Source: Prosapia bicincta
Lineage: Eukaryota > Arthropoda > Insecta > Hemiptera > Cercopidae
Direction of reading: 5' to 3'
Length of the DNA stretch: 64,000 nt
Assembly (NCBI GenBank): GCA_036971475.1
Contig: JBAIZL010000002.1
Location: 169,778,024 to 169,842,023 of the forward strand
Shown here: positions 26,127 through 61,930 of the stretch, in pieces
Layout: each line of letters begins with the position of its first letter
How positions within the stretch are numbered: position 1 is the first letter of the stretch
Notes under the pieces: generated by a model
Databases searched by the model: none
Seen by the model: only the letters and a program-made list of their open reading frames with translations
What the model was told of the DNA's origin: nothing
Position numbers and translations under genes: made by a program

Positions 26127-26168
26127 ATGATAAGGTGCCTTTCGGTCACTTGACCATTGTCGAATCAC
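26127..26168 (-). ncRNA. Hammerhead ribozyme-like motif D1 (U3/A8 core)
   Basis: - strand: stem I GTGAT (26168-26164), core TCGACAA (26163-26157), extra T, stem II GGTC/GACC around AAGT (26155-26144), GAAA (26143-26140), stem III AGGCACCT (26140-26133), U17, then ATCAT, which pairs with GTGAT. Compared with CUGANGA, C3 is U and G8 is A. Activity is uncertain. Confidence 0.55.
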
Positions 26169-26555
26169 TCTAAATCACTCGGACTCACAAAACTAACACT
26201 TACAGTAACATGATAAATAAAGCAATAAAATACACACAGGATAACAAAGAAAAATTAAATGAAGAATTAGATAACATTACAAAAATAGCAATAGAAAATG
26301 GATACAACAAACACCTTTTAAAAATATATACAATAAATTCACAAAAAACCTAACCTCAACACAACACTACAACCGGAACACAAAAATAATAAAAATAAAA
26401 CATCTACCTAAAATATAAATACACCAATAACAAAATAGAAAAAATAAATATATACAACAAAGAATACTACACTCCAACACAAACCAAACAACAAAATAAT
26501 AAAATATCTTAATAACACAAACCACAAAACAAATTCAGAAAAACATAACCTATCA

Positions 26556-26720
26556 GGAATTTACAAAATTACATGTAACAACTGTAACGCATTTTACATA
26601 AGGAAAACAACCAGATCATTTAAAATAAGATTTGAAGAACATTATAGAGCATTCAAAAACAAAAATTCAAAAGTATCAAATGTTGCCGCACACCTAATAT
26701 CAATAAACATGAAATAACAA
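26556..26720 (+). pseudogene. GIY-YIG endonuclease domain of a Penelope-like element, decayed
   Basis: Translation from 26556 gives GIY, then C-x2-C, FYIRKTTRSF and RFEEHYRAFKN, the usual order for Penelope-like GIY-YIG domains. The glycine of the YIG motif is replaced by arginine, and the flanking frames contain stops, so it is not functional. Confidence 0.7.
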
Positions 26721-26964
26721 ATTACGAAAATAACCTAACCCTACTTGAAATAAATAATAACCCATTAGAACTAAACTCACTAGAAAAATACCACATTTAT
26801 AAAAACAAACACAACAATTTAATGAATCTACAAACAACATATACAGAAGACATACTATTAAAAAACATTATACAAAAGACTCAAGAGGAAACGTGTATGA
26901 CGTCAATAAGTACCAACACGACGGACCGGACATCCACACCAGAAAAATTGAGAAAAAGTAATCA

Positions 26965-27006
26965 GTGATTCGATATTGGTCAAGTGACCGAAAGGCGCCT
27001 CATCAC
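26965..27006 (+). ncRNA. Hammerhead ribozyme-like motif D2 (degenerate core)
   Basis: Stem I GTGAT/ATCAC (26965-26969 with 27002-27006), stem II GGTC/GACC (26978-26989), GAAA and self-complementary stem III AGGCGCCT (26993-27000) are all intact. The core reads TCGATAT instead of TCGACAA, so this copy has lost A9. Confidence 0.5.
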
Positions 27007-27067
27007 TCAAGGTAAAATCATTGAACTTAATGGTGGATAAAATTACTTACAATAGTAATATATTAAC

Positions 27068-27159
<92 letters not shown>

Positions 27160-27560
27160 CAAATATTCATTCGTTAATAAAATACTTTTTATTCATTCAC
27201 TAAAGTTCAAATATATATTTTTTACTTGTTGGGGATGACAATTGATGTTAATACAGTTTTAAAAAAATAATAATTCATTAATCATTAATTTCAGGAATTA
27301 TTTTAATTTTATATGGGAGAAAAACTTTTACAAAAGGGCAACGTATGCAATATAGTTATCTCGTTCCATTTGGTTTAAAATAAGTCACAATCTCGTATGA
27401 TTTCATAAAACAGCTAATTTTATGACATAGGTTATGTGACATAACTGCTGTTTTAACGCATAGGTTATGTTACTTTATTTATGTTAATTGTAATTATTTA
27501 ATAAAAAGTAACTAAAATAAAATAAATTTCTTTCTTCTGAGTAGGAAGTGATTGTAAAAC
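27068..27560 (+). repeat. Interspersed repeat R1, copy with TA microsatellite
   Basis: (TA)n at 27070-27157, then the full R1 body ending with TTTAATAAAAAGTAACTA and TTTCTTTCTTCTGAGTAGG. The TA run is shared with the right end of the family D element, so one may have inserted into the microsatellite of the other. Confidence 0.75.
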
Positions 27561-27564
27561 CTTT

Positions 27565-27870
27565 ATGTTCATATTACTTGTTTATTCCACTGTTACGATT
27601 TTGGATAAAGTATTCGCGCACCAGTTGCTTCGCTCTATTGGGCACACATTGCTCATCGCAGTCTTGAGTGGAAAGAATCGGAGTGCGACGGTTGAAGCAC
27701 TGTTCGGAACTGTGGACAAAGAGGGATATGGTTTTGCAGGAAAATACTGTCACGAGATATATGCAACAGTGGGACGCTGGGCAGCCTTTCGTACATTCCC
27801 CGGCGTTTCTTTCCTGGATAAAGTGAAAATGCCTTCATTACATTTCCAAACAATCGATGAGTGAGGCGAT
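27565..27870 (+). other. Unassigned open segment of higher GC
   Basis: About 99 codons are open on the + strand, and 81 on the - strand in the same place. Composition is more balanced than the surroundings, but neither product resembles a family I recognise, and neither has clear splice sites fitting the receptor gene phases. It could be a decayed element. Confidence 0.25.
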
Positions 27871-28134
27871 AGCTTTGATTGTTAAAACCCAAAAGCAAAA
27901 ACCATGATGGGTTTGTTTTACCGGTAAATATAGAAATAAAGCTTGAAGATGGTAAATGAACGTCTTGATGGACTTATAATTAAAATAAATTTATAAAACA
28001 ATTAGCGAGTCATAACGTTTTCGATCCAACTAAGCTATCTTTATCTGACACTGGCGCAAATTGATTCTCAAAAGCGTTATCTCTAAGTATAATTTCTATA
28101 AATTTACTTTAAAACAAGTAATATTTAAAAAAAT

Positions 28135-28202
28135 AATCTAGTAAATTCTTACTTAGGTCAAAAAAAATTACTTTATTACTTTTTATTAAATAATTACAAA
28201 TA

Positions 28203-28262
<60 letters not shown>
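28135..28262 (-). repeat. R1 end fragment with TA microsatellite
   Basis: CTTACTTAGGTCAAAAAAA and ACTTTTTATTAAATAATTACA, followed by (TA)n at 28204-28260. The rest of R1 is absent. Confidence 0.6.
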
Positions 28263-28639
28263 GGATGGGCCGATTCCGATTCCATTGATTAAAGTCTCGA
28301 TTCCGATTCTTGTTTTTTAACTGTTAAAATATATTAATAACTGGTGTAATTTAAACGAAATATAATTAAGCTATATTAAGCTAATTAAGCTAACGCTCCT
28401 TTGAATGAATTTATTTCAAATACTCACTTGAAATCAAGAAAATATTATTATTTATGACGCAACAACAACGAGTAACGGAGACACTTCTGGTCCGTTTGTC
28501 ACCGCTCTTTTCGCTCTTCTATTACACTCGAGAGGGCTCGACACTCTCTCTCCCGTCTCTCTCTCTCTCCCTCCCCCTCTCTCTCCCTCCCTTCTCTCCC
28601 CCTCTCTCCCTTCCCCTCTCTCTCCCTCTCTATCTCCCT

Positions 28640-28698
<59 letters not shown>

Positions 28699-28995
28699 GT
28701 CATAACAAAACACAAAGGAAAGGTAGTTCCAATTTCTCCAGTTATACAAACTGAAATGCCTTTTACTGAAGTTATATTAAAATTATGAACTGAAGTTCAC
28801 ATTTTAATCTTAAATAAATCATTTCTTCTACCCGATGAGTTTGTCGTGCTCAGAAAAGCCTATTTATAAACCAAGGTTGGACGTTTTGTGTAGCCTGTTA
28901 CATTGGAACGGGACTTCTAAAATGCTTCACCACGCGAAAAGATGTTAACTAGATTCAGTATTAGAGAATATCTTGTAGATCTGTATAACTTAATA
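28263..28995. mobile_element. Deletion derivative of the 2.76 kb hAT element
   Basis: It starts with GGATGGGCCGATTCCGATTC, the TIR of the element at 22885-25641. It continues with sequence complementary to that element's right part (GACGCAACAACAACGAGTAAC region, then a CT tract matching the GA tract at 25265). The far end near 28990 (GAATCGAGAATT) is a truncated subterminal unit. The transposase region is missing. Confidence 0.65.
28541..28697. repeat. CT-rich microsatellite
   Basis: CTCTCTC and CCCTCCCT units lie inside the hAT deletion derivative and correspond to the GA tract of the longer element. Confidence 0.9.
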
Positions 28996-29129
28996 GAATC
29001 GAGAATTAACGTTGCCTGCAGGCGACCTAGTTAAAGTGCGCCCGAGTGGCGCGGGATCCGTCTACTGAGGCTGGCCAGTCTGCTCCGTTGGAGATACAGC
29101 GAACCAGTCCCGTTACTTATTGAATGGAC

Positions 29130-29171
<42 letters not shown>

Positions 29172-29174
29172 ATG

Positions 29175-29228
<54 letters not shown>

Positions 29229-29296
29229 ATATGTGTGTGTGTGTGTGTGTGTGTGTATTACACACACACGCGCACGCACACACACGTACGTGCGCG

Positions 29297-29361
<65 letters not shown>

Positions 29362-29362
29362 C
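29130..29362. repeat. Compound TA, GT, CA microsatellite
   Basis: (TA)n, (GT)n, ACACGCGC units, (CA)n and (TA)n follow one another over 230 bases. (GT)n next to (CA)n gives strong hairpin potential. Confidence 0.95.
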
Positions 29363-29374
29363 GTATATATACAC

Positions 29375-29790
29375 ACATAAGATCTTCAAATTTTCAATCT
29401 CTAATAAAAAAATCTTTTTATTCATCCAATCAAGTTCAAATACATACTTTTAAGACTTGTAGTGGATGGCATTTGATGTTAATAAAGTTTTTTTCAGATA
29501 TTAATTCACTGATTAAATTTATTGAATCAATTTTAGTTTTGTATGGATTGTATGGGAGAACAAACTTTTCACAAAAGGAGCAAGGTATGAAATATAGATA
29601 TTTCGTCCAATTTTTCTTAAAATAAGTAATAACATATGATTTCGTAAAACAGCTGATTTTATGTTATAGGTTATGTGATAGAACAGCTGTTTTAACGCAT
29701 AGGTTATGTTACTTTATTTATATTAATTGTATTTAATAAAAAGTCACTACAATAAGTTTTTTCTTTGTTCACCTAAGTAGGACATTTTAA
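29375..29790 (+). repeat. Interspersed repeat R1
   Basis: A nearly complete body: TTTTCAATCTCTAATAAAAA, CTTGTAGTGGATGGCATTTG, ACAAAAGGAGCAAGGTATGA, two CAGCTG subrepeats, and TTTAATAAAAAGTCACTAC. It ends about 150 bases before the exon at 29942. Confidence 0.75.
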
Positions 29791-29941
29791 AATTTGTTTT
29801 TATACTGTTTTTGTTTAAAAAACATTAACTATACAGCTCGTTCTGAAGTTTTTTGAAATCTATTTAAAGTAGGTAATTTCTACAAACTTAGTATTAAATT
29901 TTGCTAGTATAAAAGAAAACAGCTATATTATGTATTGGCAG

Positions 29942-30280
29942 GTATTTGTGCTGTTAAAAACGTGGAGGACCACGCCAAGCAGGCGGCATCTCTTCCTGGG
30001 CCAGATGTTGCTGCTCGGGCTGTTCCTATGCGCTGCAGTGGCCGCCCTCCTCAGCGCGGAGCCCACAGTACTAACCTGCGCAGGCGTGCGGCTCGGAGCA
30101 GGCCTGGCCTATAGCCTCGTCTTCTCTACGCTTCTGGTAAAGTGTGTCTTCCTAATATCGCTAAATGGCGGAGTCTACCTGCCTGCCCCCTACCAGGCTC
30201 TGCTACTCTTCTTCGCCGTCCTCATTCAACTTGCCATTGGCGCGCAGTGGCTCATCAACAACCCTCCCAAAGTTATACAA
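29942..30280 (+). CDS. Class C GPCR, exon with TM1 end to TM4
   Basis: Acceptor TTGGCAG before 29942, donor CAA|GTAGGT after 30280, phase 0 at both ends; 113 residues. It continues TM1 (VFVLLKTW), then intracellular TTPSRRHLFLG, TM2 (QMLLLGLFLCAAVAALL), an extracellular loop, and a cysteine in TVLTCAGVR at the position of the conserved TM3 cysteine. TM3 (AYSLVFSTLLVKCVFLISLN) is followed by NGGVYLPAPYQ, and TM4 is ALLLFFAVLIQLAIGAQWLI. GC content is far above the flanking introns. The topology and the positively charged first loop fit class C receptors. A longer donor at 30284 would shift the frame and is rejected, because the next exon reads on in phase 0. Confidence 0.92.
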
Positions 30281-31040: not shown

Positions 31041-31041
<1 letters not shown>

Positions 31042-37079: not shown

Positions 37080-38024
37080 TTATGAGCGTAGAGGTAGAGG
37101 GAAAACCTTGTGAGCAGGTCTTGTCAAGGTTCCCTGCTTTGTCTTCAAATGAACCACTCTTACTACACCATCCTTTCCTGGAGAAACACTACTTATCCTA
37201 GCCAGAGGCCATGCGAGAGGTGGTGCAGGTTGATGCACTAACACGAGGTCGCCGACGCGCAGGTTGACAGTTGGCACGTTCCACTTCCCCCGTTGCTGAA
37301 GAGTATGGATATATTCTAGATGCCATCTCTTCCAAATACGCTGGTGAAAGGCCTTGATTAGCTGCCAGTGCTTGAGTCGGTTGGCAGGAACGTTGAAAAG
37401 ATCCTCTTCTGGAACTGAAACCAATGAAGATCCTATTAAGAAGTGACCCGGGGTGAGTGCATTGAGGTCTGAGGTGTCGTTTGAGAGAGGTGTGAGAGGT
37501 CTCGAATTCAAAATAGCCTCTACTTGAGTTGTGAGAGTGGAAAATTCACATAGAGTTAAAATATGTTCACCGATGACACGCCGGAGGTGATGTTTTGCAC
37601 TCTTGATTGCTGCTTCCCAAAGACCACCTTGATGAGGAGCTGCAGGCGGGTTGAAATGAAAGTTGATATTGTGTTGTAATGAGAATTCAGCAAGAGGGGT
37701 TCGGCCTGAAGAGATGATGAGATTTTGTAAAGCATTATTCGCTCCAACGAAATTCGTTCCACAGTCAGAATAAATATTTGTGCAAAGACCGCGTCTAGAC
37801 ACAAATCGGGTGAGAGCGGCAATAAACCCATCTGTCGACAGGTCCGATACTACTTCAATGTGTACAGCCTTTGTCACAAGGCAAACAAAGATACAAATAT
37901 ATGCTTTGGTCAAGCGAATCGAGCGAAAATTGTGCATTTTGATGTTAAAAGGACCTCCGTAGTCAATTCCGGTGTTGAGAAACGGACGAGAAGGAGTTAA
38001 TCTTGCTTTTGGTAAATCACCCAT
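37080..38024 (-). pseudogene. BEL/Pao polyprotein, integrase part
   Basis: Third open segment of the interrupted polyprotein, in the same frame as the two upstream segments. It contains the integrase catalytic core: TKAVHIEVVSDLS, YSDCGTNFVGA and a glutamate in PHQGGLWEAAIKSAKHH, which supply the D, D and E positions. It is followed by the C-terminal domain typical of Pao-type elements (LRVGDLVLVHQ). The stretch just upstream (38111-38025) is open in the same frame and carries the C-x2-C half of the zinc-binding motif (FQCVVCFRH), but it is cut from the preceding segment by a TGA at 38112-38114. Confidence 0.9.
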
Positions 38025-38111
38025 GAGCGGAGATTTATTGTGAGGCTTGTGTCGGAAACATACAACACATTGAAAAATGCGAGAGCGTATTACACTTCGG
38101 GCCGAGAGTAT

Positions 38112-39092
38112 TCACACATCCTGTGCAAGAAGTGATTGAGTCAATTGAGCGCCCGAGTGTAAGTATTTTCGATGATAAAAATCAATAAGAAGGTTGACGA
38201 CATGATGTCGTTTGGGCAAAATCAAAGGATGTTGCACATCCGTAGGAAGTTTTAAAGCGTTGAGACGTCCTCCCACTCGTAGGATATCATCCTTGTCGAG
38301 AAAAGGAGAGAGTCGGCGGAGTTGTGACGAGGCAGGTGTAGTTGGATCCTTCTTCATGGCAACGATGTAGTCTCTGAACGCTGATTCTTGAACCATCTTG
38401 AAAATTGCCAGTCTTGACGCTCTCCTTTCCAGAGTGTTGAGAGGACCATCGAGCTTTCTTGAATGACGAGCGTTATGAGTAAATCGCAAAATATAAGCCA
38501 TCACACGCTGGAGTCGGCTAAAGTGTGAAAACTGAGCGAGGAGCTCCCATTCATGAGGAGCAGTTGATATGAGAGATATAGGTGGAATGGGTTTCTCTTC
38601 TCCTGTGTCAGTAAGTTTTGCAGGAATAAAATGAGATACAGGCCAGTTATCATTAGATTTTTGTAGCCAAAAGTGGCCGTACCACCATAATGAGTGCTGT
38701 GGTAAATCTTTAGGAAGTAACCCACGCGACGCGCAATCAGCAGGATTACCTTCACTCGCTAAGTGTCTCCAGTAATAAGAAGGCACTAACTCTTGTATCT
38801 GGGCTACCCGGTTGGCGACAAACGTCTTCAATCGATGAAGAGGTGTTTGTAACCATGTCAGTGTTACTGTCGAATCACACCATAGAAATACAGAAGAAAA
38901 TTCCACCCTTTTTTCAAAAAGAGAGATAACATATCCCACTAGTTGGGCGAGTAAATGAGCTGCACTTAGCTCTAATCGAGGTACCGTGAGCCTTTTCAGA
39001 GGGGCTACCCGAGTCTTCGATATTACTTGCCGAATTAACACAAAGTCGTCGCTAAGTTGGCATCTCAAGTAAACGACGGCGGCATAACCGTT
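38112..39092 (-). pseudogene. BEL/Pao polyprotein, RNase H end and integrase zinc-binding part
   Basis: Middle segment between the stops at 39093-39095 and 38112-38114. It holds the C-terminal part of RNase H (VPRLELSAAHLLAQL, WCDSTVTLTWL, NPADCASRG) and the histidine half of the integrase zinc finger (LLIDFYHRKYLHSG). It is in the same frame as its neighbours, so nothing but the two stop codons separates them. Confidence 0.9.
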
Positions 39093-42000
39093 CTAGGAAG
39101 CATCTGAGAAACCGTGTATCTCAAAGTTTCTCGAGTGTGTTCGTAATGCACGAGGAATTACAATTTCTCGTAGAGTGTTAGCCGAGTCTGTAAAGGTTTG
39201 CCATAATTTCAATTGTTCAGATGGAAGTGGTTCACCCCAGTTCAATCCTTTGATCCAGAGTAGTTGCATAAAACGCTTGGCCCACATAACAATGGGTGAG
39301 ACAAAGCCACAAGGGTCGTAAATCTGGGCAATGATACCGAGAATTTGACGTTTAGTCCTGGAATTGTGAGGAAAATTCAAATTATAGGTAAACTTATCGG
39401 TAGAGGGTGACCAGTGAAGACCTAATATAGTGAAATGTGGTTGTTTACTGCCTTGAAGGAATACAGGGGTCTCTAAATGAGCATCAGGTAGATCTTGCAG
39501 CAGTTGACTGGGGTTAGATGTCCATTTGCGTAGTTCAAAGCCTCCGCGAGCCAGGAGCGAGATGAGTTGCTTACGGAGGCTCAAAGCCTTTTCTTCAGAG
39601 TCAGCTCCAGAGATGATGTCATCTACGAACGTCTGCGTGCGTAGAATATTTGCAGCTTCAGGATAGGAGTCACCTTCGTCTGCAGCGAGCTGATGTAAGG
39701 TTCTAATGGCAAGATACGGTGAACAATTCACACCGTAAGTCACTGTCGTGAGCTTGTAGATTAAAGAGGGCTGATCTGGACTTTCACGCCATAAGATCAT
39801 CTGATAGCACTGGTCATCAGGGTGCATTTTTACCTGTCTATACATTTGACGAATGTCACAAGAAAAAACAACGTTATGAATCCGAAAATTTAGTAATAAA
39901 TCACAAATATTCGTTTGCATCTTTTTGCCTGTTAATAAAATATTATTAAGAGAAATACCATTAGAGGTTTCAGAACTAGCATCAAATACAGTACGTAAAC
40001 GAGTTGTGCAGCTAGACTCCTTTAAAACACCATGGTGAGGAAGGAAGTAATGGGGTACAGTTAGATCAGTATTATGAGCGTATATCATGTGACCAGAGGC
40101 TATGTAGTCAGCCATAAAATCAGTATATAGGGATTTAAATTGAGGTTGAGCACTAAATTTCTTCTCTAGAGAGTGCAATCTTTTTTCTGCATTTAAACGA
40201 GATTGACCCAGAGGAGGATGTTCAGTCTTGAATGGTAGTCGGACGCAATATCGGCCAGATTTGTCCCGAGTATGAGTGGCGAGAAAGTGATCTTCACATA
40301 ATGTATCTTCTTGAGAAAGCTTAGACACAGCAGGGGGTTCTTCCTGTTGCCAAAACCTTTGTAGTGAGTAGTGAAGGTCAATGTCGTTGACAACTAGAAG
40401 TGTAGTTGATAATTGAGAGCTGGAGTTACTATGAAGTTCACTGCCAGATAGACATGGTGCGTTACCCATTACTAAAAAGCCAAAGTGTGTGCCTATTAGC
40501 CTAGGTAAACCAGGTCCGAGGTTATAAGATTCTTGAGTAAGTATGAGTGGAAATAAAGCACCACCAAGAAGAACGTCTATGCCTCCTGGCAAGTGAAACG
40601 TAGGGTCTGCCAAAACATAAGGACGAACCTTGGAAAGAACTTCAGAGTCTACTTGTGTGCTTGGTAGGTTAACACATATTTTTTCCAATATTAAAAATCT
40701 TTCATTAATTGAAATAACCTTGCCCCCAAGAGTTTCAACAGCAACTGAGGTGAGACCTTTTGAGCGTAGGGGTACCTGAGACAATCCTACCACACTATGA
40801 GTGGTCTTAGTACGAGGAGCACACAATAATTGAGCAGCACGCTCGGTGAAAAAACAAGATTGACTGCCAGAGTCAACAAGAGCACGAAATACATGAGTAA
40901 TACAGTTAGACGAGGTACGCTTAACAAGTAGAGTGCCTAAGAGAACAGTATTAGAGATTTGAGACGTATTCTGCGTTTCTTGACAGGTCATAGTGATTGG
41001 AGAAGGAGTTATTTCCTGTTGAAGTGTCGGAGAGTCTTGACGCGAAGTTTGAGGTGTGGTCCGTTGCAGCGTAGAGTAATTTTCAAAATGTAATAATGTA
41101 TGATGATTTTTGTGGCATTTGTAGCAACTAAACTTTGACCTACAGTCGTTAAGATGGTGAGTATCTAAGCATGAGGTACAACGCCCCTTTTCCTTTACAA
41201 TTTTGAGACGGGATTTGGCGTCCTGACTCTTGAAGTCCGGACACGAATATACCTTATGGTCAATTTTATTGCATATAAAGCATGGATGAGGTTTAACTTT
41301 AATGGAGGAGCCTTCTCCATAATTGTAGGACATCAGTGATACTTTTTGTTTAAAGTATTTATTTTGGGGACCAGAAGGGGTGCGTGATCCAGACGAGGAG
41401 GGTTTCGAGGTGAAAGGAGAATGAAGATTGGCATCTTCAACTTCATTACATTCTTTACTTAAAAGCTTAATAATTTCCGCTGCATCAGGTATTGTAGTGG
41501 AGTCAACTCTCTCTTGAGTAACACTTGATGAACGGAAGTTTTCAAAACGGTTCCTAAGTTCACTATCCATTTTTCGTAAAAGCATAGCAGATAACAAAGG
41601 ATTTTTACTAGTGATATCGATGTCAAAACCTTTAAGAGCTTGTATATTTTCTGAGTATAAATTTACAAAATTTCTCATTTGTTTAGGCGTGTTGTTTACA
41701 GAGGGCAAATCTAAAATTTGATTGAGGTGTAAAGTAACTAACCGCCTCGGCGAGTGATATCTTTCTTTTAATAAGTCATAGGCCACTTTATAGTTAGCGT
41801 CAGAAATAGGGAGAGATTTAATTAAATTTAGCGGTTCTCCTGAGATAACGCTCAATAAATATTGAAGTTTAGAAACTGCTGGTAACGATGCATTTTCATG
41901 AATGCTAGCGTTAAATATATTAATGAATGACATCCATTCGAGAAATTCACCATCGAAATGCTTGAGTTCAAGCTTAGGCAGTCGTATATGTAACTGAGGA

Positions 42001-42215
42001 GTAACTATTTCACATTTAGGCCTTGTTGATGACATCTTACTTTCTATCGAATATACGGTAGAATTAATATAATCGACTAACTCGTTGATGCTGTTAAGAG
42101 GAGCGTAGTTGGGTTGAAAATTCGGGTTAGCCTGTATTTCTAGTTCATGATAAATGTCTAAAATATCAGAAAATTCTTCACGAAGCCTATTTATAGATTT
42201 AGCGCGCACCAACAA
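39093..42215 (-). pseudogene. BEL/Pao polyprotein, Gag to RNase H part
   Basis: 1,040 codons open. Gag-like region at about residues 78-170 (LPKLELKHFDGEFLEW). Zinc knuckles at about 312-330 and 345-376 (CFICNKIDHKVYSC, CTSC, CYKCHKNHH). Aspartic protease near 448 (LVDSGSQSCFF). Reverse transcriptase at about 735-880 with CDIRQMYRQ and FVDD (FVDDIISG). Then the region RQILGIIAQIYDPCGFVSP, ending at HGFSDAS before a TAG at 39093-39095. There is no ATG at the open 5' end. An ATG at 42327 opens a short frame in another register that stops before this one, and a run of nine A lies between, so the N terminus has probably decayed by indels. Confidence 0.93.
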
Positions 42216-42692
42216 TTTTTGCAGAATTGACTTATCAGATGTTTTTTTTTGTTAGATCAAAAATCTCTTGAATTTAACTAAATATATTGTTTTTCTTTGA
42301 TTTAATAACTGCCAAAGATTTTGCCATGATTAAATGATGGTTTTATAGCAGAAGATGAGATAACTGCTTTAATTTTTAAATTACAAAATGTTTTAAAGAG
42401 ATTAGGCCTATGAGCGTATATGTTTAACGGAGAAATAAATAAGCCTAAGTAAACAACAAATCGACGTAGGCTCAATGAGATAACCTTATATAAACAACTG
42501 AAATCACCTTTCATAAACTTTTACAATTAATTTAAACCAACATGTTAATGCACGCCAAAGCCAAACAAAGATGAGAGAGGTATCAGCTGTTTCATATACT
42601 ACGACATGAAACTAGTTTTCCAGTGTTTGCATGCACAGACAAAGTTTGAAAAAACTTGTAGAAATTGTAGAATAAACACATATAATGAATTG

Positions 42693-46214: not shown

Positions 46215-46410
46215 CATATGAGGTTATTTAATTAAAAGAAATTTTACTAATTTTTATTCAGAGCTTTTCATTGGTAAACAGCTCCAACACCATCAGGAAA
46301 TAATAATTGATTGTATTATTCATTTCTGATGATGTTGGTACTGTATACCAACAACAAGCTTTGAATAAAATTAATAAATAATTTTTGTATTTGTAAAACC
46401 TCAGTCGTTT
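46215..46410. repeat. Family B-like foldback with decayed hammerhead motifs
   Basis: The inverted arms (about 46235-46305 and 46312-46385) share TTTATTCA/TGAATAAA, AAGCTTT/AGAGCTTTT, GTTGGTA and CATCAG/CTGATG. The right arm has CTGATGA (46326-46332), an extra T and stem GTTGG/CCAAC, but AACA instead of GAAA. The left arm has CTGATGG on the - strand. Both motifs are therefore mutated at invariant positions. Confidence 0.7.
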
Positions 46411-49617: not shown

Positions 49618-49815
49618 TTATTTCATTCCATCTCTGCTTGAGCTACTTAAGGTTTACACTAAAAACACTTGAACTTATTTTAGTAAGTTACACTTGCCTA
49701 TAGTAGCTTATTTGACTTCCTTATTTGAATATTGAGAACAGCAGTTTCGGGGGATGTGTTCTATTGTCAACTCAAACCGTAACTGAGCTCTTGGTTGTTT
49801 TAGGTGAGGGTGGAA
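49618..49815 (-). repeat. Diverged terminal segment of the family C Penelope-like element
   Basis: Matches the ends seen at 50.2 and 51.8 kb: TTCCATCTCTGCTTGAGCTA, CTTGCCTATAGTAGC and CAGTTTCGGGGGATGTGTTC. On the - strand it retains UGAG, UUGACAA and GAAAC of the hammerhead-like motif, but stem II has decayed. Confidence 0.65.
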
Positions 49816-50256
49816 GAGGTTAGGAATATTAGATGATTTTTCCGAAAGTTTGGGGGATATGATTTTAGTGCAACATCATACAGACGCTAATGTTTTTTTA
49901 ATGACTAAAATACTTCTTAAGGGTAAATTAATTTATATGAATCTAATAGCATTTAATGATATTTGTTGAAACAATTTGCCACTTTTTGCAAATTTATTAA
50001 AATCAATATAAATCTATTAAATTCATTTGTCTAAGTTTATTTTTTTTAAAATGTATTACTACATTATTTTTCATTTAGGTTTTCATTTTAGTGACCAGTC
50101 GCACAACGTCCGAGTGTTCTTATCTACTAGGACTATTGTAGAATTTTTAAAAAAATTTTAGCATTTGTTGATTCCATCTTCGCAAGAGCTACTAAAAATC
50201 ACTTACACTTTTAAAAAATGTTTCAACTTGCCTATAGTAGCACTTACTTTGCTTGT

Positions 50257-50298
50257 TGAGGACGGCCGTTTCGGGAGATGTGTCCCTTTGTCAACTCA
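50257..50298 (-). ncRNA. Hammerhead ribozyme-like motif C2 (U3/A8 core)
   Basis: - strand: stem I TGAG (50298-50295), core TTGACAA (50294-50288), extra A (50287), stem II GGGA/TCCC (50286-50273), GAAA (50272-50269), self-complementary stem III ACGGCCGT (50269-50262), C17, then CTCA (50260-50257), which pairs with TGAG. The core departs from CUGANGA at positions 3 and 8 together. Confidence 0.55.
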
Positions 50299-50329
50299 GA
50301 CCGTAACTGATCTCAAGGTTTAGTAGGTT

Positions 50330-50877
50330 AGGGTGGGGTGGGATATTTTGGTGGTGTGGGTGTATTTTGTGTGTATTAGGAGTTATGATGTCAAAAAGTG
50401 AGTGTGAGTTGTAATGTAATTGTGTATTGAGTATGTGTGTAGGGTGTAGTTTGAAGTGCCTATATATTTCGTATTGTTCGGTTGTGTAGCGTTGGTTATT
50501 TCTGTGTTGTTTATGAAGAATTTGTAGGTTAGATGTTATGTCTATGTTGTCATGTTTTGTGGAGTTGAGATAATCGGCGAAGTTTGATTGGTAGTTATTG
50601 TTTTTTAGTGCTTTTATATGTTCTTGGTAACGTTTGTAGAATGACCTCCCTGTCTGGCCTATGTAAAAACTGGGGCATGAACTGCAAGTTAGTTTGTAAA
50701 CTCCAGTGGTGTTGTAAATGTCGTTGATTTTGCTGTTGGGTTTAAATTGTTTATTGAGAGTGTTGTGTGTGGAGTCAGCTATTTTGTAGTTGTATTTTCG
50801 TAATGTGTTGGTTAGATTGTGGGTTTTGGATGATCTGTAAGGTATTGATAAGTATTTTATGGGATTGTCATCTTGTA
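50330..50877 (-). pseudogene. Penelope-like GIY-YIG domain, inverted-arm copy
   Basis: The - strand translation mirrors the + strand domain at 51331-51711, including the C-x2-C and FYIGQTGRSFYTRYQEH-type motif. It lacks the reverse transcriptase part and begins abruptly at the inversion junction near 50877. Confidence 0.75.
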
Positions 50878-50880
50878 ATT

Positions 50881-51711
50881 AAACAGACAGGCAAACAAAC
50901 ACATAAATTCAACATATACCGAAAACCCACCAGCACCAATACGACCATACACAGTTCCTCAAACCACCCACACCAACACAAACTAGCTGCTTACAATACC
51001 ATGATATATCGCCTCCTTAAAACACCACTAGACAAAGATGAACACTACCAGGAGTTAAACACCATAAAATATATAGCACAAACAAACGGTTACAACCCAA
51101 CAATGATAGACAAATTATACAACCGCCTAAAAAATAAACATAATAACCCAAATACAAACACACAAGATGACAATCCCATAAAATACTTATCAATACCTTA
51201 CAGATCATCCAAAACCCACAATCTAACCAACACATTACGAAAATACAACTACAAAATAGCTTACTCCACACACAACACTCTCAATAGACAATTTAAACCC
51301 AACAGCATAATCAACGACATTTACAACACCACTGGAGTTTACAAACTAACTTGCAGTTCATGCCCCAGTTTTTACATAGGCCAGACAGGGAGGTCATTCT
51401 ACACACGTTACCAAGAACATATAAAAGCACTAAAAAACAATAACTACCAATCAAACTTCGCCGATCATCTCAACTCCACAAAACAGGATTACACAGACAT
51501 AACATCTAACCTACAAATTCTTCATAAACAACACAGAAATAACCAACACTACACAACCGAACAATACGAAATATATAGGCACTTCAAACTACACCCTACA
51601 CACATACTCAATACACAATTACATTACAACTCACACTCACTTTTTGACATCATAACTCCTAATACACACAAAATACACCCACACCACCAAAATATCCCAC
51701 CCCCACCCTAA
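50881..51711 (+). CDS. Penelope-like element: end of reverse transcriptase plus GIY-YIG endonuclease (5'-truncated)
   Basis: Open from the inversion junction to TAA at 51709-51711, about 276 codons of element sequence. The first part (HKFNIYRKPTSTNTTIHSSS, HKLAAYNTMIYRLL, YIAQTNGYN) is the C-terminal thumb region of a Penelope-like reverse transcriptase. The linker is Asn/Lys-rich. The GIY-YIG domain starts at 51334 with GVY, followed by LTCSSCPSFYIGQTGR, R in YTRYQEHIKAL, then a His-rich end. GIY-YIG nickase domains in these elements make the target cut for reverse transcription. The frame extends artificially upstream to 50767 through inverted-arm sequence. It lacks the catalytic fingers and palm, so this copy is not autonomous. 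Confidence 0.85.
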   Translation, partial: KQTGKQTHKFNIYRKPTSTNTTIHSSSNHPHQHKLAAYNTMIYRLLKTPLDKDEHYQELNTIKYIAQTNGYNPTMIDKLYNRLKNKHNNPNTNTQDDNPIKYLSIPYRSSKTHNLTNTLRKYNYKIAYSTHNTLNRQFKPNSIINDIYNTTGVYKLTCSSCPSFYIGQTGRSFYTRYQEHIKALKNNNYQSNFADHLNSTKQDYTDITSNLQILHKQHRNNQHYTTEQYEIYRHFKLHPTHILNTQLHYNSHSLFDIITPNTHKIHPHHQNIPPPP

Positions 51712-51741
51712 CCTACGTAAACCTTGAGATCAGTTACGGTC

Positions 51742-51783
51742 TGAGTTGACAAAGGGACACATCTCCCGAAACGGCCGTCCTCA
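51742..51783 (+). ncRNA. Hammerhead ribozyme-like motif C3 (U3/A8 core)
   Basis: Stem I TGAG/CTCA (51742-51745 with 51780-51783), core TTGACAA (51746-51752), extra A (51753), stem II GGGA/TCCC (51754-51767), GAAA (51768-51771), self-complementary stem III ACGGCCGT (51771-51778), C17 at 51779. It mirrors motif C2 in the other arm. Confidence 0.55.
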
Positions 51784-51976
51784 ACAAGCAAAGTAAGTGC
51801 TACTATAGGCAAGTTAAAACATTTTTTAAAAGTGTAAGTGAAAATTTTAGCTTTAGTTACCATATGATGAATAAACCAATGGTAATTCTATACAACTATT
51901 ATTTGAGCTTAGCTTGTGAGGTTATGTTAAAACAAATAAAAGACATACACAAAACTCACAAATTAATCATTTATGG

Positions 51977-52019
51977 ATTCATACACGTTTCAATGACAAA
52001 GTCATCATCATCAGTGAGT
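51977..52019 (-). ncRNA. Hammerhead ribozyme-like motif A4
   Basis: - strand: ACTCA (52019-52015), CTGATGA (52014-52008), extra T, stem II, GAAA (51991-51988), stem III ACGTGT, A17 (51982), then TGAAT. There is one mismatch in stem I relative to motif A5. Confidence 0.55.
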
Positions 52020-52065
52020 GTTACTACTACAAACTAAGTTGTAAGTTAGAGTTTGTAGTAGCAAC

Positions 52066-52108
52066 ACTCACTGATGATGATGGCTTGGTCATTGAAACGT
52101 GTATGAGT
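52066..52108 (+). ncRNA. Hammerhead ribozyme-like motif A5
   Basis: Stem I ACTCA/TGAGT (52066-52070 with 52104-52108), core CTGATGA (52071-52077), extra T (52078), stem II GATGGC/GTCATT with loop TTG (52079-52093), GAAA (52094-52097), stem III ACGTGT (52097-52102), A17 (52103). The cleavage triplet would be GUA. All canonical core positions are kept. Confidence 0.65.
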
Positions 52109-52175
52109 CAATAAATGATTAATTTGTGATTTTTGTGTACGTCTTTAATTTGTTTTATTTTTGTTTCAAAAATTA

Positions 52176-52885: not shown

Positions 52886-53562
52886 CAAATATTAAAGAAG
52901 TTGGAATTATTAGAAGCCAGTCTAGACTCATAGATGAATTGGAATCAGATGTTGAAGGAGAGGGTGGCCCAAATGATGACCCTGAGAAAGAATTAGATTT
53001 TGATTCAGACGTCTCGGGTGAAGACCCAGATTATGAGTCGCCTGATGTGGATGTCAATGATCTAACACTGGATGATATTATTCAAGACGTTTAGGGCAGG
53101 AATGAAGGGATTTTTGTAGCATACTATCCTATAACATGCTGAACATTGCGTCCATCAATTAATTTCCAATGGATCTACACAATAACTAGAAAAAGCCAAA
53201 TACAAGGGCATGTCAGGAGAAAACCAGTTCAACGTTTCTATTTCTTTGTAGAGTTGAGCAAACAGCTGATGGTAAAATGGATGAAGAATGTTTTGGCATC
53301 TGAAAAGATCTCAAAGGATCTGAAAGAATTCAATGAAAGGTGTTTCTTCGGCAAATAAAAATTTACAATGGGATACTACTGCTAAAACTACTGTTGCAAC
53401 TGCTGTTTTACCTTCTACGGGTGATCAAGAGAAGAAAAAAAATACTGCAGCTGTTATAACGACAAAAAAAAGAAAAATGTCGGAAATGAGATGTAACTAT
53501 TGTAATACCAATATATGTGGCGAACACAAAAAAACATTATGTTCAGATTGTTGTAAACAATT
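52886..53562 (+). pseudogene. piggyBac-type transposase remnant
   Basis: The left part (about 52930-53094) encodes an acidic segment (DELESDVEGEGGPNDDPEKE, then DDIIQDV and a stop) typical of piggyBac transposase N termini. The right part (53146-53560) encodes HVRRKPVQRFYFFVELS, then a Lys/Thr linker and CNYCNTNICGEHKKTLCSDC, which fits the C-terminal cysteine-rich finger of piggyBac transposases. The catalytic DDD core between them is deleted and the frame changes near 53340. It ends in (TA)n at 53569, at the edge of a family D foldback. Terminal TTAA sites or TIRs were not recognised. Confidence 0.65.
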
Positions 53563-53564
53563 AT

Positions 53565-53846
53565 TTAAATATATATATATATATATATATATGAAGTTGA
53601 TATATTACTATTGTAAGTAATTTTATCCACCATTAAGTGCAATGATTTTACCTTGTGGGATGAGGCGCCTTTCGGTCACTTGACCATTTCACTGAAAAAG
53701 TAATCAGTGATTCGACAATGGTCAAGTGACCGAAAGGCGCCTCATCACACAAGGTAAAATCATTGCACTTAATGGTGGATAAAATTACTTACAATAGTAA
53801 TATATTAACTTCATAAAGTCAGTGCAACGGAAAAACAATGGACAAC

Positions 53847-53850
<4 letters not shown>
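53565..53850. repeat. Foldback element, family D
   Basis: The inverted arms (about 53593-53680 and 53715-53810) share GAAGTTGATATATTACTATT/ AATAGTAATATATTAACTTC-type ends and ATTTTATCCACCATTAAGTG. TA microsatellites abut both sides (53569-53592 and 53851-53920). These are the same ends as the Penelope-like remnant at 26.0-27.1 kb, with the coding part gone. Confidence 0.85.
53707..53748 (+). ncRNA. Hammerhead ribozyme-like motif D4 (U3/A8 core)
   Basis: Stem I GTGAT/ATCAC (53707-53711 with 53744-53748), core TCGACAA (53712-53718), extra T (53719), stem II GGTC/GACC (53720-53731), GAAA (53732-53735), self-complementary stem III AGGCGCCT (53735-53742), C17 (53743). The mirrored left-arm copy has lost its core to the foldback loop. 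Confidence 0.6.

Positions 53851-53920
<70 letters not shown>
53851..53920. repeat. TA microsatellite
   Basis: About 35 TA units following the family D foldback. Confidence 0.95.
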
Positions 53921-56375: not shown

Positions 56376-56437
<62 letters not shown>

Positions 56438-56479
56438 AACAAAAGCCTAAATACAAATACAAGAATTATAATTGAATTT

Positions 56480-56527
56480 ACAATTCAAAGCTTTTTGTTG
56501 GCTAACAGTACCAACATCATCAGGAAT
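56480..56527 (-). ncRNA. Hammerhead ribozyme-like motif B5 (G12 lost)
   Basis: - strand: CTGATGA (56523-56517), extra T, stem II GTTGG/CCAAC, then AAAA where GAAA is expected. The change removes G12, the general base in known hammerheads, so this arm is probably inactive. Confidence 0.5.
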
Positions 56528-56552
56528 ATTAAACAATTATGAATTGTTTAAT

Positions 56553-56597
56553 ATTCCTGATGATGTTGGTACTGTTAGCCAACGAAAAGCTTTGAAT
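56553..56597 (+). ncRNA. Hammerhead ribozyme-like motif B6
   Basis: Stem I ATTC/GAAT (56553-56556 with 56594-56597), core CTGATGA (56557-56563), extra T (56564), stem II GTTGG/CCAAC (56565-56569 with 56579-56583), GAAA (56584-56587), self-complementary stem III AAGCTT (56587-56592), U17 (56593). All conserved core residues are intact. Confidence 0.62.
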
Positions 56598-56680
56598 TGT
56601 AAATTCAATTATAATTCTTGTATTTGTATTTAGACTTTTGTTCTTTATTAATACACAAGAAAACATACTGCGATATATAT

Positions 56681-56896
56681 ATTCTTGATATTTAACGTTA
56701 TCCATTGTTTTTCCGTTGCACTGACTTTATGAAGTTAATATATTACTATTGTAAGTAATTTTATCCACCACTACCAGACCAGAAAAATATCTGTGATTTG
56801 ACAATGGTCAAGTGACCGAAAGGTGCCTCATCACAACAAGGTAAAATTATTGCACTTAGTGGTGGATAAAATTACTTACAATAGTAATATATTAAC

Positions 56897-56950
<54 letters not shown>
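56681..56950. repeat. Foldback element, family D, with TA microsatellite
   Basis: The left arm is short (about 56687-56771: ATCCATTGTTTTTCCGTTGC, AATTTTATCCACCA). The right arm (about 56790-56898) holds the hammerhead-like motif and the same end sequence. (TA)n at 56899-56948. It abuts the family B foldback on its left and the family C foldback on its right. Confidence 0.8.
56793..56834 (+). ncRNA. Hammerhead ribozyme-like motif D5 (U3/A8 core)
   Basis: Stem I GTGAT/ATCAC (56793-56797 with 56830-56834), core TTGACAA (56798-56804), extra T (56805), stem II GGTC/GACC (56806-56817), GAAA (56818-56821), stem III AGGTGCCT (56821-56828, one G-U pair), C17. The core is identical to that of family C although the arms are unrelated. 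Confidence 0.6.
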
Positions 56951-56953
<3 letters not shown>

Positions 56954-57200
56954 TGAATCCATCTTCACATGAGCTATTAGTTTTTACTAAAACACTTGAA
57001 AATATTTACAAACTTGCCTATAGTGGCACTTACTTATATTTGTTGAGGACGACCGTTTCGGGAGATGTGTCCCATTCAGTTACAGTCTGAGTTGGCAATG
57101 GGACACATCTCCCGAAACGGCCGTCCTCAACAAATATAAGTAAGCGCTACTATAGGCAAGTTTGTAAATATTTACAAGTGTTTTAGTGAATTGCTTATAG
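56951..57200. repeat. Foldback made only of family C Penelope-like ends
   Basis: The inverted arms (about 56958-57076 and 57084-57192) match the outer ends of the 50.2-51.9 kb element: CATCTTCACATGAGCTA, CTTGCCTATAGTGGCACTTA, TTGTTGAGGACGACCGTTTC. All coding sequence is absent, so two ends are joined back to back. Confidence 0.85.
57088..57129 (+). ncRNA. Hammerhead ribozyme-like motif C5
   Basis: Stem I TGAG/CTCA (57088-57091 with 57126-57129), core TTGGCAA (57092-57098, A6 changed to G), extra T, stem II GGGA/TCCC, GAAA (57114-57117), stem III ACGGCCGT. U3 and A8 are kept. Confidence 0.5.
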
Positions 57201-57845: not shown

Positions 57846-57964
57846 TTGGAGGCAATGGAGCTCTAGACACAAGTATGTACACTTCTGTTGTGGAGCCTAC
57901 AATGTCGACAAACCCCAATGTGTTTTTCCATCGTAGTGGCGTACATCCTGGCATGATGTACTGA
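57846..57964 (+). CDS. Class C GPCR, last exon with stop codon
   Basis: The acceptor TTTTGTAG before 57846 is entered with one base carried over from the 49144 donor. It encodes VGGNGALDTSMYTSVVEPTM, then STNPNVFFHRSGVHPGMMY and TGA at 57962-57964. This is the end of the cytoplasmic tail, with no membrane segment. The in-frame join, coding-like codon use and the polyadenylation signals just downstream support it as the terminal exon. The intron before it is about 8.7 kb and packed with foldback elements. Confidence 0.8.
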
Positions 57965-57975
57965 TTCAATCAACC

Positions 57976-58022
57976 AATAAACACTCTGACCAATATATCA
58001 TAGTGCTGTGTCAGTGAATAAA
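57976..58022 (+). terminator. Candidate polyadenylation signals of the receptor gene
   Basis: AATAAA occurs at 57976-57981 and again at 58017-58022, 12 and 53 bases after the stop codon, with a TTTTTT-containing stretch near 58031 downstream. Either could be used; in AT-rich DNA the hexamer alone is weak evidence. Confidence 0.5.
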
Positions 58023-58264
58023 ATTTGACAGTTTTTTACTGTGAAGACTTTAAGTAAAAATATAACAAAAATAAAAAGTATTTCTGTATAAATTGTTAAT
58101 AATAGAACTTTTCAGTAATGTTAAATACAATTAGAATTAAGAGAAAGATTGTGCCTGTTACCAATATTTGTAACACTTTCTAAACTGTTTTTTGAAAGAG
58201 CAAAATATCTTGCAACTACAGATAATTGATTATGTTCTAATACAACGAAATGTAAAGTCTAGGA

Positions 58265-59048
58265 CAGGGATGGCCAACTGGTGGCCGGGGGGCCCCATAC
58301 TGCTCGTGACCTGGTTTTATGGGGCCTCAGACGAATGTTGAAAACATTACTATATTGATTTATTGATAAATGTAAAATATAAAAATTATAGATTGGTAAA
58401 GCTTGAACACGGCCCTTACCCCCAGTGAGAGCTCTGTTGCTTGCAAAGTGAATCATTTTTTTAGAAAAGGTCAGATACTGGTGCATTTTGGAGTCAAGTG
58501 GCTGAGGAGAAATATCCCAAACTATGTGTCTTCGGTAGGAAAATACTTTCAAAGTTTGGAAGCACATACCTTTGTGAGTGCACCTTTTCAACAATGAAAT
58601 TTATAAAATCAACTCACCGCAACAGACTCACAAGCAATCTTCTTCGAGTGGCACCTGCTAAAGGTTGCCACCACTTCAATTCAGATTGAATTTTATAAAC
58701 TGTTGAACAATTGTGCCCGCTGTTATTGTTCTCAGTTAAGCAAAGTAAGTAAATACTTATTGATGATTCTAAATTTGAATAAATTAGAGTCTTTTTCCAA
58801 TATTGTGTTTCAATCTATTATTATGCTTATTTTGTTCCTTTTGGCATTGACCTTGATATTAAATGTATATGAAAATATTTTACGTAGCGTTTATGGATTT
58901 ATATTATTTCATATACAACGCATACTATACTATATATGTAATGGCTACATTTGGCTTATTGACGAATGTGTGAAATTAGTTCTGCAGCCCTCGTCTTCAT
59001 TGAAAATATTGAAGTGGCCCTTTAGGGTTAAAAAGTTGATCATCCCTG
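58265..59048 (+). mobile_element. hAT-superfamily remnant, 0.78 kb
   Basis: The terminal inverted repeats are CAGGGATGGCCAACTGGTGG on the left and, reverse complemented, CAGGGATGATCAACTTTTTA on the right. The 8-bp flanks GTCTAGGA and GTTTAAGG agree at five of eight positions, suggesting an old duplication. Inside, the + strand encodes a fragment of the hAT C-terminal domain. The rest of the transposase is deleted. It is a second, older hAT family, distinct from the one at 22.9 kb. Confidence 0.75.
58400..58690 (+). pseudogene. hAT transposase C-terminal remnant, ZBED-like
   Basis: Reading from 58498 gives AEEKYPKLCVFGRKILSKFG, then STYLCECTFSTMKFIKSTHR and RLTSNLLRVA. This follows the YP-L...FGSTYLCE-xFSxMK-x-K-x-xR-x-RLT pattern of ZBED/hAT-type transposase C termini. 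Upstream, SSVACKVNHFF and HFGVKWL lie in another frame, so at least one frameshift is present. Confidence 0.7.
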
Positions 59049-60690
59049 GTTTAAGGGTTTGTTAATTGAGTTTTATACATTTGTGATAATAGTTATTCAA
59101 TTAGAATGTATGGATTTAGAAGCAGTTGCTCAAAATATTTATAAACTTGTACAGTAAACATTTTATTGGAATTTGTTTTATTTTAAATTTTTTTCTGATA
59201 AACTCATTGTTATTTTAAATTATCAAGTAATGAAGAAGTAGGAATGTGTATAGACAAAAACAGGAATATGAGTTTTAAAATTGTACCAAATTCATTACCA
59301 TTCACTAATAAAACGGTTAACTTCAAAAGAAATTAATTTATATTTTAGAAAACAATTAATAGTTATCAGACTGAACAAAATATTTAGAGATACATTTAGA
59401 GATCCATATTTAGAAGTATTAATAAGTAAATGTGTTTTCATAACGATCATTTACAAGATTGTTTATTTATTTTAAATTTGTTGTAATCAATATTTTCTTA
59501 AACTCCTTATAATAGATATTAATAGGCTGTTGAAGCTATTGTAGATAGTTTTTTATTTAAAAATTCTAAATAAAAATATATTTCATTTTAGTTAAACAGA
59601 GACACCAAAGTGTGATAAGTGTCTATTTTTTAACCCTTTGGAAATGAGGAATATCAAAATGCAATACAATTTTCAGAGTACAGTATAATACTGGTGATTT
59701 TATCTTCTCAGCCAATAAATTATACTAAAGGGATAAACATATGAGTATTATCTCTAACCTTAAAGTCTTACTCTAAATAACCAGTCTCTTTTGTGCTGTT
59801 ATCAATGATTTAGTCGTCTAACAGAAAAAATTACACTTTATTTTAAGATTGTATGACTTCATTTAAGGTTATTTGTTATTTAAGATTGTTTGTATAGTTT
59901 TACTGTAAAAGTATACTTTTAGAGTCTTTGCTTGATACCCTTTGATGTGTTAAATATCAGGCAAAGAATAGCATTTTAAAAACACTCAATATTAAATTAA
60001 TATTCTCTTCAACCAATGACTTTTTACCTGGAGACTATTACAGGTAGTAACAATAAATTAGTTTGAATTCAAGTAAATTTTAAAAGGTGTTGAAAGTTAT
60101 TACCATTTAGATTTTAATTTGTAGAATAAAATTTAAAATTGTTTTTAAAGTTTCCTGGGTTAATTTATAACTAATAAGGGAAATAAATCCCAGCGCTCTG
60201 TTAATATGCTCAACTTTTATACTCCATGGTTAAATGTTGGACCCATCTAAAATTCTGAGTCTGCGCCACCATTAATGACACAGTTCTCTCTATAATTATA
60301 AGTAATTATTGTGTATCAGAGTAAAGACTTTTGAACTTAGTGACTGGCGTGATTTTGTACATATACTTTTCAACTGTACGTATTCCGTTATCTCAAGAGA
60401 GATCCAAACAGTTGAGGTCAAAAAATGGCAAGATATTCTTCTCAAGAAAAAATATTGACCAGTAGCAGATCGACTTATCGTGGACATCGGGATATCGGCT
60501 ACTCCTAGAGCTGGACACCTGTACGAAGAAGTAACAAGATTTTGAAACAATCCATTCATTGATAAAGGTGACCCACTGCTGCTGGTGATCCCTCAAGATT
60601 GCAGGCGTAGTTCAGCTTAATGAAACTATTGTTTCAAAATCCGTCAGCAAGTAAGTTCAAAAGATTTCACTCAGTTACCCAATAACTTAT
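59049..60690. other. Downstream non-coding DNA
   Basis: AT-rich with small unassigned frames (59281-59475 +, 60296-60596 -). No family resemblance or repeat match. Confidence 0.4.
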
Positions 60691-60790
60691 ACATATATGT
60701 TGGTTCCATCTTCACGTGAGCTACTAGTTTTCACTAAAACACTTGTAAATACTTTACAACTTGCCTATAGTACCACTTACCTATATTTGT

Positions 60791-60832
60791 TGAGGACGGC
60801 CATTTCGGGAGATGTGTCCCATTGTCAACTCG
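60791..60832 (-). ncRNA. Hammerhead ribozyme-like motif C6 (U3/A8 core)
   Basis: - strand: stem I CGAG with CTCA (one mismatch), core TTGACAA (60828-60822), extra T, stem II GGGA/TCCC (60820-60807), GAAA (60806-60803), stem III ATGGCCGT, C17. Confidence 0.5.
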
Positions 60833-61127
60833 GTTCGTAACTGATCTTAAGGTTTTCGTAATTTAGGGTGGAGGTGTGGATGAGCATTAGGAGTTATGAT
60901 GCCAAAAAGTGTGTGTAAGTTGTAATGTAATTGGGAGTTGAGTATATGTGTAGGGTGAAGTTTGAAATGTTTAGATATTTCGTATTGTTCGGTTGTAATT
61001 CGGTTGTATTTCTCTATTGTTTATGAAGAATTTGTAGGTTGGATGTTATGTCTATATGGTCATGTTTTGTGGACTTGAGATGTTCGTCAAAAATTGATTG
61101 GTAATTATTGTTTGTTAGTGCATATAT

Positions 61128-61290
61128 ATATATATATATTCTTGATATTTAACGTTATCCATTGTTTTTCCGTTGCACTGACTTTATGAAGTTAATATAT
61201 TACTAAGTAAGTAATTTAATCCACCATTACTCAAGGTAAAATTATTGCACTTAATGGTGGATTAAATTACTTACTTAGTAATATATTAAC

Positions 61291-61322
<32 letters not shown>
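61128..61322. repeat. Nested family D foldback with TA runs
   Basis: (TA)n, TCTTGATATTTAACGTTATC, arms with TTAATCCACCATTA and its complement, TTAACTTCA, then (TA)n. The hammerhead region is deleted: the arms meet at ACTCAAGGTAAAATTATTGC. It interrupts the family C arm at a TATATG site. Confidence 0.85.
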
Positions 61323-61326
<4 letters not shown>

Positions 61327-61888
61327 TTTGGTACTGTGTGTAAAAAGACCTCCCTGTCTGGCCTATGTAAAAACTGAGGCACGAACTGCAAGTTAGTATG
61401 TAAACTCCAACGGCGTTGAAAATGCCATTGATTTTGTTGTTGACTTCGTTGACCAATACACTACGAAAATACAATCACAAAATAGCCTACTCCACACACA
61501 ACACTCTCAATAAACAATTTAAATCCAACCACAAAATCAACGGCATTTACAACACAGCTGAAGTTTACAAACTAACTTGCAGTTTGTGCCCCAGTTTTTA
61601 CATAGGCCAGACAGGGAGGACAAGTACATATAAATGCTTTAACAAACAATAACTACCAATCGAACTTTATAAACAATACAGAAATAACCAACGTTACACA
61701 ACCGAACAATACAAAATATACAAACATTTCAAACTACACCCTACTCACATATTCAACACCCAATTACAATTTAACTCACACACTCTTTTCGACATCATAA
61801 CCCCTAATGTTCACCAAATACACCCACACCCCAACCTAATATTACACCCCCCTCTCAATCTACAAAAACCTTGAGATCAGTTACTGTC

Positions 61889-61930
61889 TGACTTGAAAAT
61901 GGAACACATCTCCCGAAACAGCCGGCCTCA
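61889..61930 (+). ncRNA. Hammerhead ribozyme-like motif C7 (decayed)
   Basis: TGAC, core TTGAAAA, extra T, stem II GGAA/TCCC, GAAA, CAGCCGGC, CTCA. Several pairs are lost, but U3 and A8 remain. Confidence 0.35.

Follow-up and report, generated by a model that had tools for sequence, protein, structure and literature searches.

Hammerhead motifs with a U3/A8 core pair in two Penelope-like families of the Prosapia bicincta genome

The stretch of DNA analyzed here, a window of 64,000 nucleotides (nt) from contig JBAIZL010000002.1 of Prosapia bicincta, contains two repeat families, C and D, which carry a hammerhead ribozyme motif whose standard core residues C3 and G8 are jointly replaced by U3 and A8. 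The presence of this motif with U3/A8 in both families was confirmed. We consider it probable that C and D are Penelope-like elements (PLEs), i.e. retroelements, equipped with a small type I U3-A8 hammerhead that works as a dimer. All counts for C and D given below refer to ten full copies, six of C and four of D, from this one window, which are designated by their start positions (Table 1).

Seven of these copies had been named in the original prediction, and each was found to hold the motif described; a gapped scan of the window with the motifs of four families (A, B, C and D) revealed three further full copies, C 49733-49774(-), C 61889-61930(+) and D 26965-27006(+). Two truncated inverted arms, 57044-57076(-) and 53659-53688(-), were excluded from the C and D counts. 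The layout is common to both families and consists of stem I, a core of the UYGANAA type, one extra nucleotide, a stem II of four base pairs, GAAA, a palindrome or near-palindrome of 6 nt, U-H and the second strand of stem I. Thus, three stems surround the core, GAAA (10/10) and U-H (9/10) are kept, and the open end lies at stem I as in type I hammerheads, with copy-specific exceptions.

Positions 3 and 8 are U and A in all ten copies, including the three added ones, so that the earlier statement that no C or D copy carries C3/G8 still holds. The standard core CUGANGA is found in none of them, UUGANAA or UCGANAA types being present instead, and no alternative register that would yield CUGANGA was seen in C and D on inspection by eye. 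In family C the core reads UUGACAA in 49733, 50257, 51742 and 60791, UUGGCAA in 57088 and UUGAAAA in 61889; in family D it reads UCGACAA in 26127 and 53707, UCGAUAU in 26965 and UUGACAA in 56793. Besides U3/A8, the core changes are therefore A6G in 57088, A9U in 26965 and C4 for U4 in three of the four D copies. Eight copies have U as the extra nucleotide after A9 and two have A; these two are identical to each other. The original prediction had all named helices pairing; this is right for 92 of the 100 stem positions in C and D, and the exceptions lie in 49733, 61889, 60791 and 26127. The letters permit a Watson-Crick pair between positions 3 and 8 in every copy, and by analogy with published hammerhead structures U3 and A8 would be in contact.

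For comparison, families A and B from the same window, which possess the standard core, were scored as well, giving a set of 17 rows (10 C/D and 7 A/B, the A/B rows 9198 and 9398 being identical arms). The A/B rows 516, 8584, 51979 and 46322 are partial or gapped and were excluded from the pair counts; CTGATGA is found in 516, 8584 and 46322, and 51979 is without that half in the aligned piece. All seven scored A/B rows exhibit C3/G8 and an extra U, and 65 of their 70 stem positions pair, with deviations in 46256 (A9 to G) and 56483 (AAAA for GAAA). Taken over all 17 rows, positions 3 and 8 are always able to pair, as U-A in C/D and as C-G in A/B, the mixed states C3/A8 and U3/G8 do not occur, and the extra nucleotide is always A or U. 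The stem sequences differ among the families and nevertheless pair, with G-C, A-T, T-A or C-G at II.2 and A-T, C-G or T-A at I.2. Since variation inside any single family is mostly one-sided or pair-breaking, the evidence for covariation is evidence between families. The A and B motifs, full or partial, occur on both strands of palindromes of about 140-250 bp (51928-52157, 8470-8667, 56432-56648, 46256-46395 and 9198-9443); in one of them the B motif 56483(-) has AAAA at the GAAA site and its twin 56553(+) keeps GAAA.

Stem III consists of a palindrome or near-palindrome of only 6 nt, in which pairing of all six bases would leave no space for a loop, and we therefore take a dimer of two motifs to be the likely working form. 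Folding of the monomers of C 51742, D 53707 and D 56793 did not yield the hammerhead. In unconstrained folding of dimers, all expected pairs of stems I, II and III were predicted for C 50257 and 51742, which are one sequence (24/24), and for D 26965 and 53707 (26/26). Consequently, the full dimer fold was obtained for two of six C copies, identical to each other, and for two of four D copies. Among 500 shuffled sequences each, the maximum was 8 of 24 pairs for 51742 and 10 of 26 for 53707.

Near-perfect hairpins were found at 57044-57129 in family C (-62.4 kcal/mol) and at 53659-53748 in family D (-68.3 kcal/mol), whose predicted folds contain no hammerhead. In both foldbacks the inverted arm is without a stretch of 6-7 nt of the core (about U3 to C7) before (A)ATGG, and the core thus bulges out on one side of a near-perfect hairpin. 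This matching break may reflect self-priming, repair at the centre of the palindrome or chance.

The second line of evidence is the element context. The C motif 51742 starts 30 nt past the stop of the open reading frame (ORF) 50758-51711, for which 23 homologs were found at E<=0.001, among them matches from Periplaneta and Pyrocoelia; the Periplaneta americana homolog shows 47% identity over 78% of the query. In an alignment of the C ORF of the window with 20 of the 23 homologs (P0019, P0022 and P0023 were excluded), Pfam detected GIY-YIG (PF01541) in nine and RVT_1 in five of the 21 members at E<=0.01. Decayed pieces of such ORFs lie upstream of further motifs, and the piece linked to D, 26472-26941, is 49% identical to the C protein over 53 residues. 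The proposed tie between the hammerhead motifs and Penelope-like elements is thereby corroborated for both C and D. A search with tblastn and the homologs of the C ORF found no complete reverse transcriptase in the window, only the C-terminal GIY-YIG part. Inverted copies of the kind seen in Penelope terminal repeats (pLTRs) are present, 50199-50876 and 51162-51841 being 98.1% identical, and foldbacks occur in D as well; no element was delimited in full, with a direct pLTR at either end. Inverted pLTRs of this kind are known from Penelope elements of Adineta vaga (PMC3846280).

Table 1 Positions of the hammerhead motifs and associated reading frames in the window. Dimer fold gives the predicted fraction of expected pairs.
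Feature	Position	Strand	Remark
C motif, complete, U3/A8, extra A after A9	50257..50298	-	dimer fold 24/24
C motif, complete, U3/A8	51742..51783	+	42 letters identical to 50257; dimer fold 24/24
C motif, U3/A8, core A6G	57088..57129	+	within foldback; dimer fold 8/24
C motif, U3/A8, without outermost stem I pair	60791..60832	-	dimer fold 18/24
C motif, U3/A8, decayed	61889..61930	+	U16.1 to G, mismatches in stems I, II and III; dimer fold 0/24
C motif, U3/A8, most diverged C copy	49733..49774	-	stem II decayed (1/4 pairs kept); dimer fold 0/24
D motif, U3/A8, C4	26127..26168	-	stem III centre mismatched; dimer fold 14/26
D motif, U3/A8, C4, A9 to U	26965..27006	+	3' of decayed GIY-YIG ORF; dimer fold 26/26
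D motif, U3/A8, C4, stems all intact	53707..53748	+	within foldback; dimer fold 26/26
D motif, U3/A8, consensus U4	56793..56834	+	stems able to pair, other hairpin preferred; dimer fold 8/26
Truncated inverted arm of C, without 5' half of core	57044..57076	-	gapped scan
Truncated inverted arm of D, without U3 to C7	53659..53688	-	gapped scan
Penelope-like C-terminal ORF of family C, GIY-YIG part	50758..51711	+	stop-to-stop; assigned by homologs
Inverted second copy of family C ORF	50291..50878	-	stop-to-stop; frame enters motif 50257-50298 by 8 nt
Decayed C-type ORF piece	61464..61847	+	upstream of motif 61889
Decayed C-type ORF piece	60850..61121	-	upstream of motif 60791
Decayed Penelope-like GIY-YIG ORF piece	26472..26941	+	upstream of D motif 26965
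A motif, standard C3/G8	52066..52108	+	internal comparison
A motif, standard C3/G8	8515..8557	-	internal comparison
B motif, standard C3/G8	56553..56597	+	internal comparison

A strict structural scan accepted either core pair and required stems I and II of 4 bp or more, a stem III able to pair with itself, and U-H. It returned seven motifs from the window (two each of A, C and D and one of B), whereas 200 dinucleotide shuffles yielded none. As its criteria were set once the motifs had been seen, C4 and the extra base being permitted, and as the copies are related, this result is supporting only, with an effective count of four families. Rfam gave no hammerhead family at E<=5 across the window or at E<=10 around 51742. 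As it missed the canonical copy 52066 too, its silence on C and D is uninformative. The Rfam matches that were obtained, mostly microRNA families on foldbacks or dinucleotide repeats, all lay below the gathering scores.

Relatives beyond the window were also sought. The genome contigs searched yielded no relative, and comparison of the C-family protein with viral contigs gave none either (seven stretches matched the pattern, none was confirmed). The alignment of the C ORF matched four weak loci in viral contigs (L001-L004, 29-49% identity), and a scan found a hammerhead-like motif in none of the four.

The U3-A8 pair itself is not without precedent. Its activity in vitro was reportedly established by Przybilski and Hammann in 2007, to whom Perreault et al. 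credit it. According to Perreault et al. 2011 (PMC3088659), several natural hammerheads show covariation of C3/G8 to U3/A8, and activity of such pairs had been demonstrated in vitro before. Hence the novelty assumed in the original prediction falls, and we file C and D as a hammerhead variant, not as standard hammerheads, of which the U3/A8 part has a published natural counterpart. A literature search that paired 'U3-A8' with 'hammerhead' returned no match, although the fact is printed in that paper in other words. The passage concerned does not name the source of the variants, which may even be PLE hammerheads; unlike what it describes, C and D exhibit U3-A8 in all copies seen of two PLE families together with an extra base after A9. 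An unpaired extra nucleotide directly after A9 is also found in the plus-strand hammerhead of chrysanthemum chlorotic mottle viroid, a single A there and mostly U, else A, in the PLE families C and D; in the viroid hammerhead, trans-cleavage rose 3-4-fold when A10 was replaced by U, while C or G proved detrimental there (PMC3705267).

Minimal PLE hammerheads are said to have been treated by Cervera and De la Pena in 2014 and by Lunse et al. in 2017, the title of the latter naming dimer cleavage. Hammerheads of PLEs are known to adjoin the PLE ORF and to have a reduced stem III (PMC6155905, PMC11167929), and in both respects C and D resemble the minimal PLE hammerheads (PMC6155905). The hammerhead of the Anolis element PAc has C3/G8, in contrast to the U3/A8 of C and D (PMC11167929). 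Dimer action is documented for hammerheads of newts and viroids (PMC6155905) and has been proposed for the repeat hammerheads of Aedes aegypti (PMC3088659, Figure S8 legend), which like C and D are insect interspersed repeats with a palindromic stem III and a loop III suited to dimers; the legend is silent on U3/A8. The original prediction had further invoked G8 as the proposed general acid. This is correct for the residue; the group described is, however, the 2'-OH and not the base (PMC6155905, PMC11300833). A8 need not impair the general acid for this reason, and the known chemistry would be left unchanged.

The question whether U3/A8 marks a variant or decay was approached through conservation, with pairs of copies that are non-independent. 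Of the 15 copy pairs of family C, 13 show greater similarity in the motif than in the flank that follows it. The copy 49733 shares only 34-40 of 60 positions of the 3' flank with the other C copies and 34-35 of 42 positions of the motif; as U3/A8 is common to this copy and the rest despite the divergence of the flank, the change predates the spread of C. Judged by these comparisons, C looks constrained. The claim of a variant rather than plain decay is thus supported, and better so in C than in D, by U3/A8 in all ten copies and the absence of mixed rows, whereas the designation as a new class is not. U3/A8 in C and D could go back to one shared origin by descent as well as to two independent ones.

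Several observations weigh against a working ribozyme, and most of them bear on an explanation by fossil motifs: ribozyme activity would have been abolished by C3U and G8A in an early source copy, and C and D would have multiplied afterwards with no need for cleavage. Among the six pairs of D copies, only one has a motif better conserved than the flank; in this family C4 replaces the conserved U4 in three of four copies and A9U occurs in one; by these features D may be drifting. Six of the ten copies (57088, 60791, 49733, 61889, 26127 and 56793) did not give the full dimer fold, which according to the fold predictions fits decay in several of them; in 56793, however, the stems can pair and another hairpin is preferred. 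Insertion by Anolis PAc in vitro was unchanged in hammerhead mutants, i.e. the PLE hammerhead was dispensable in that assay (PMC11167929), and the extra A of the viroid moderately slowed trans-cleavage (PMC3705267). Furthermore, the copies are few and related, and the window's own ORF piece had no Pfam match at E<=0.001, only DUF2746 being listed below the cut-off at 0.0088, so that the Penelope-like assignment of the C ORF rests on homologs. Nevertheless, in both families the two positions moved jointly to another Watson-Crick pair with no intermediate among the 17 rows, the C motif is better conserved than its flank in most pairs, and U3-A8 hammerheads are reported to be active in vitro (PMC3088659). 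We therefore regard the fossil explanation as unlikely.

A role of the conserved hairpins as double-stranded RNA or foldback DNA, and not as ribozymes, would agree with the two near-perfect hairpins, in whose predicted folds the hammerhead is lost; GAAA and U-H, however, are unneeded by a foldback and are kept almost throughout C and D, and inverted pLTRs with palindromic junctions already belong to known PLE insertions (PMC3846280), which makes this explanation highly improbable. Transitions are the most frequent type of mutation. Separate decay of each copy from C3/G8 by C-to-T and G-to-A, two transitions, is nonetheless scarcely credible and, within the window, contradicted, as every copy including the diverged 49733 has both changes and none is mixed or standard.

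A U3-A8 hammerhead acting as a dimer would fit the PLE life cycle as follows. The hammerhead would lie at or near the ORF-side edge of the pLTRs of C and D elements, with U-A instead of C-G at positions 3 and 8 and with an additional A or U separating A9 from stem II. Transcripts of tandem or partly tandem copies would bring together the two motifs of the working dimer, and cleavage after position 17 is predicted to process such transcripts into units. The core was likely altered from C3-G8 via the wobble pair U3.G8 to U3-A8, that is by two transitions, before each family spread.

The window is AT-rich (32% GC), with numerous dinucleotide repeats and retroelement ORFs of animal type. A satellite array with a 73-bp unit (25 copies, 96% matches) occupies 16089-17923, and at 37080-42251 three neighbouring open frames of the minus strand presumably form one LTR retroelement of the BEL/Pao type. 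D copies lie inside or border (AT)n/(CA)n runs (26009-26169, 26952-27165, 53562-53901, 56673-56953 and 61122-61323), which is consistent with a reported preference of PLEs for AT-rich targets (PMC11167929).

If cleavage is confirmed, C and D would provide a natural multi-copy case of the swap from C3-G8 to U3-A8, which Perreault et al. report as several examples (PMC3088659). The cost of exchanging the core pair and the value of the extra A or U could then be measured in elements that spread with them. The most far-reaching version, that a whole insect PLE lineage stably fixed a dimer-only U3-A8 hammerhead with A or U after A9, and that selection maintained this non-standard core beside standard-core families in the same genome, is put forward only tentatively, as we hold it to be rather less probable than its opposite. 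Confirmed cleavage would also serve as a warning that entire families of Penelope-like elements can escape hammerhead searches restricted to CUGANGA.

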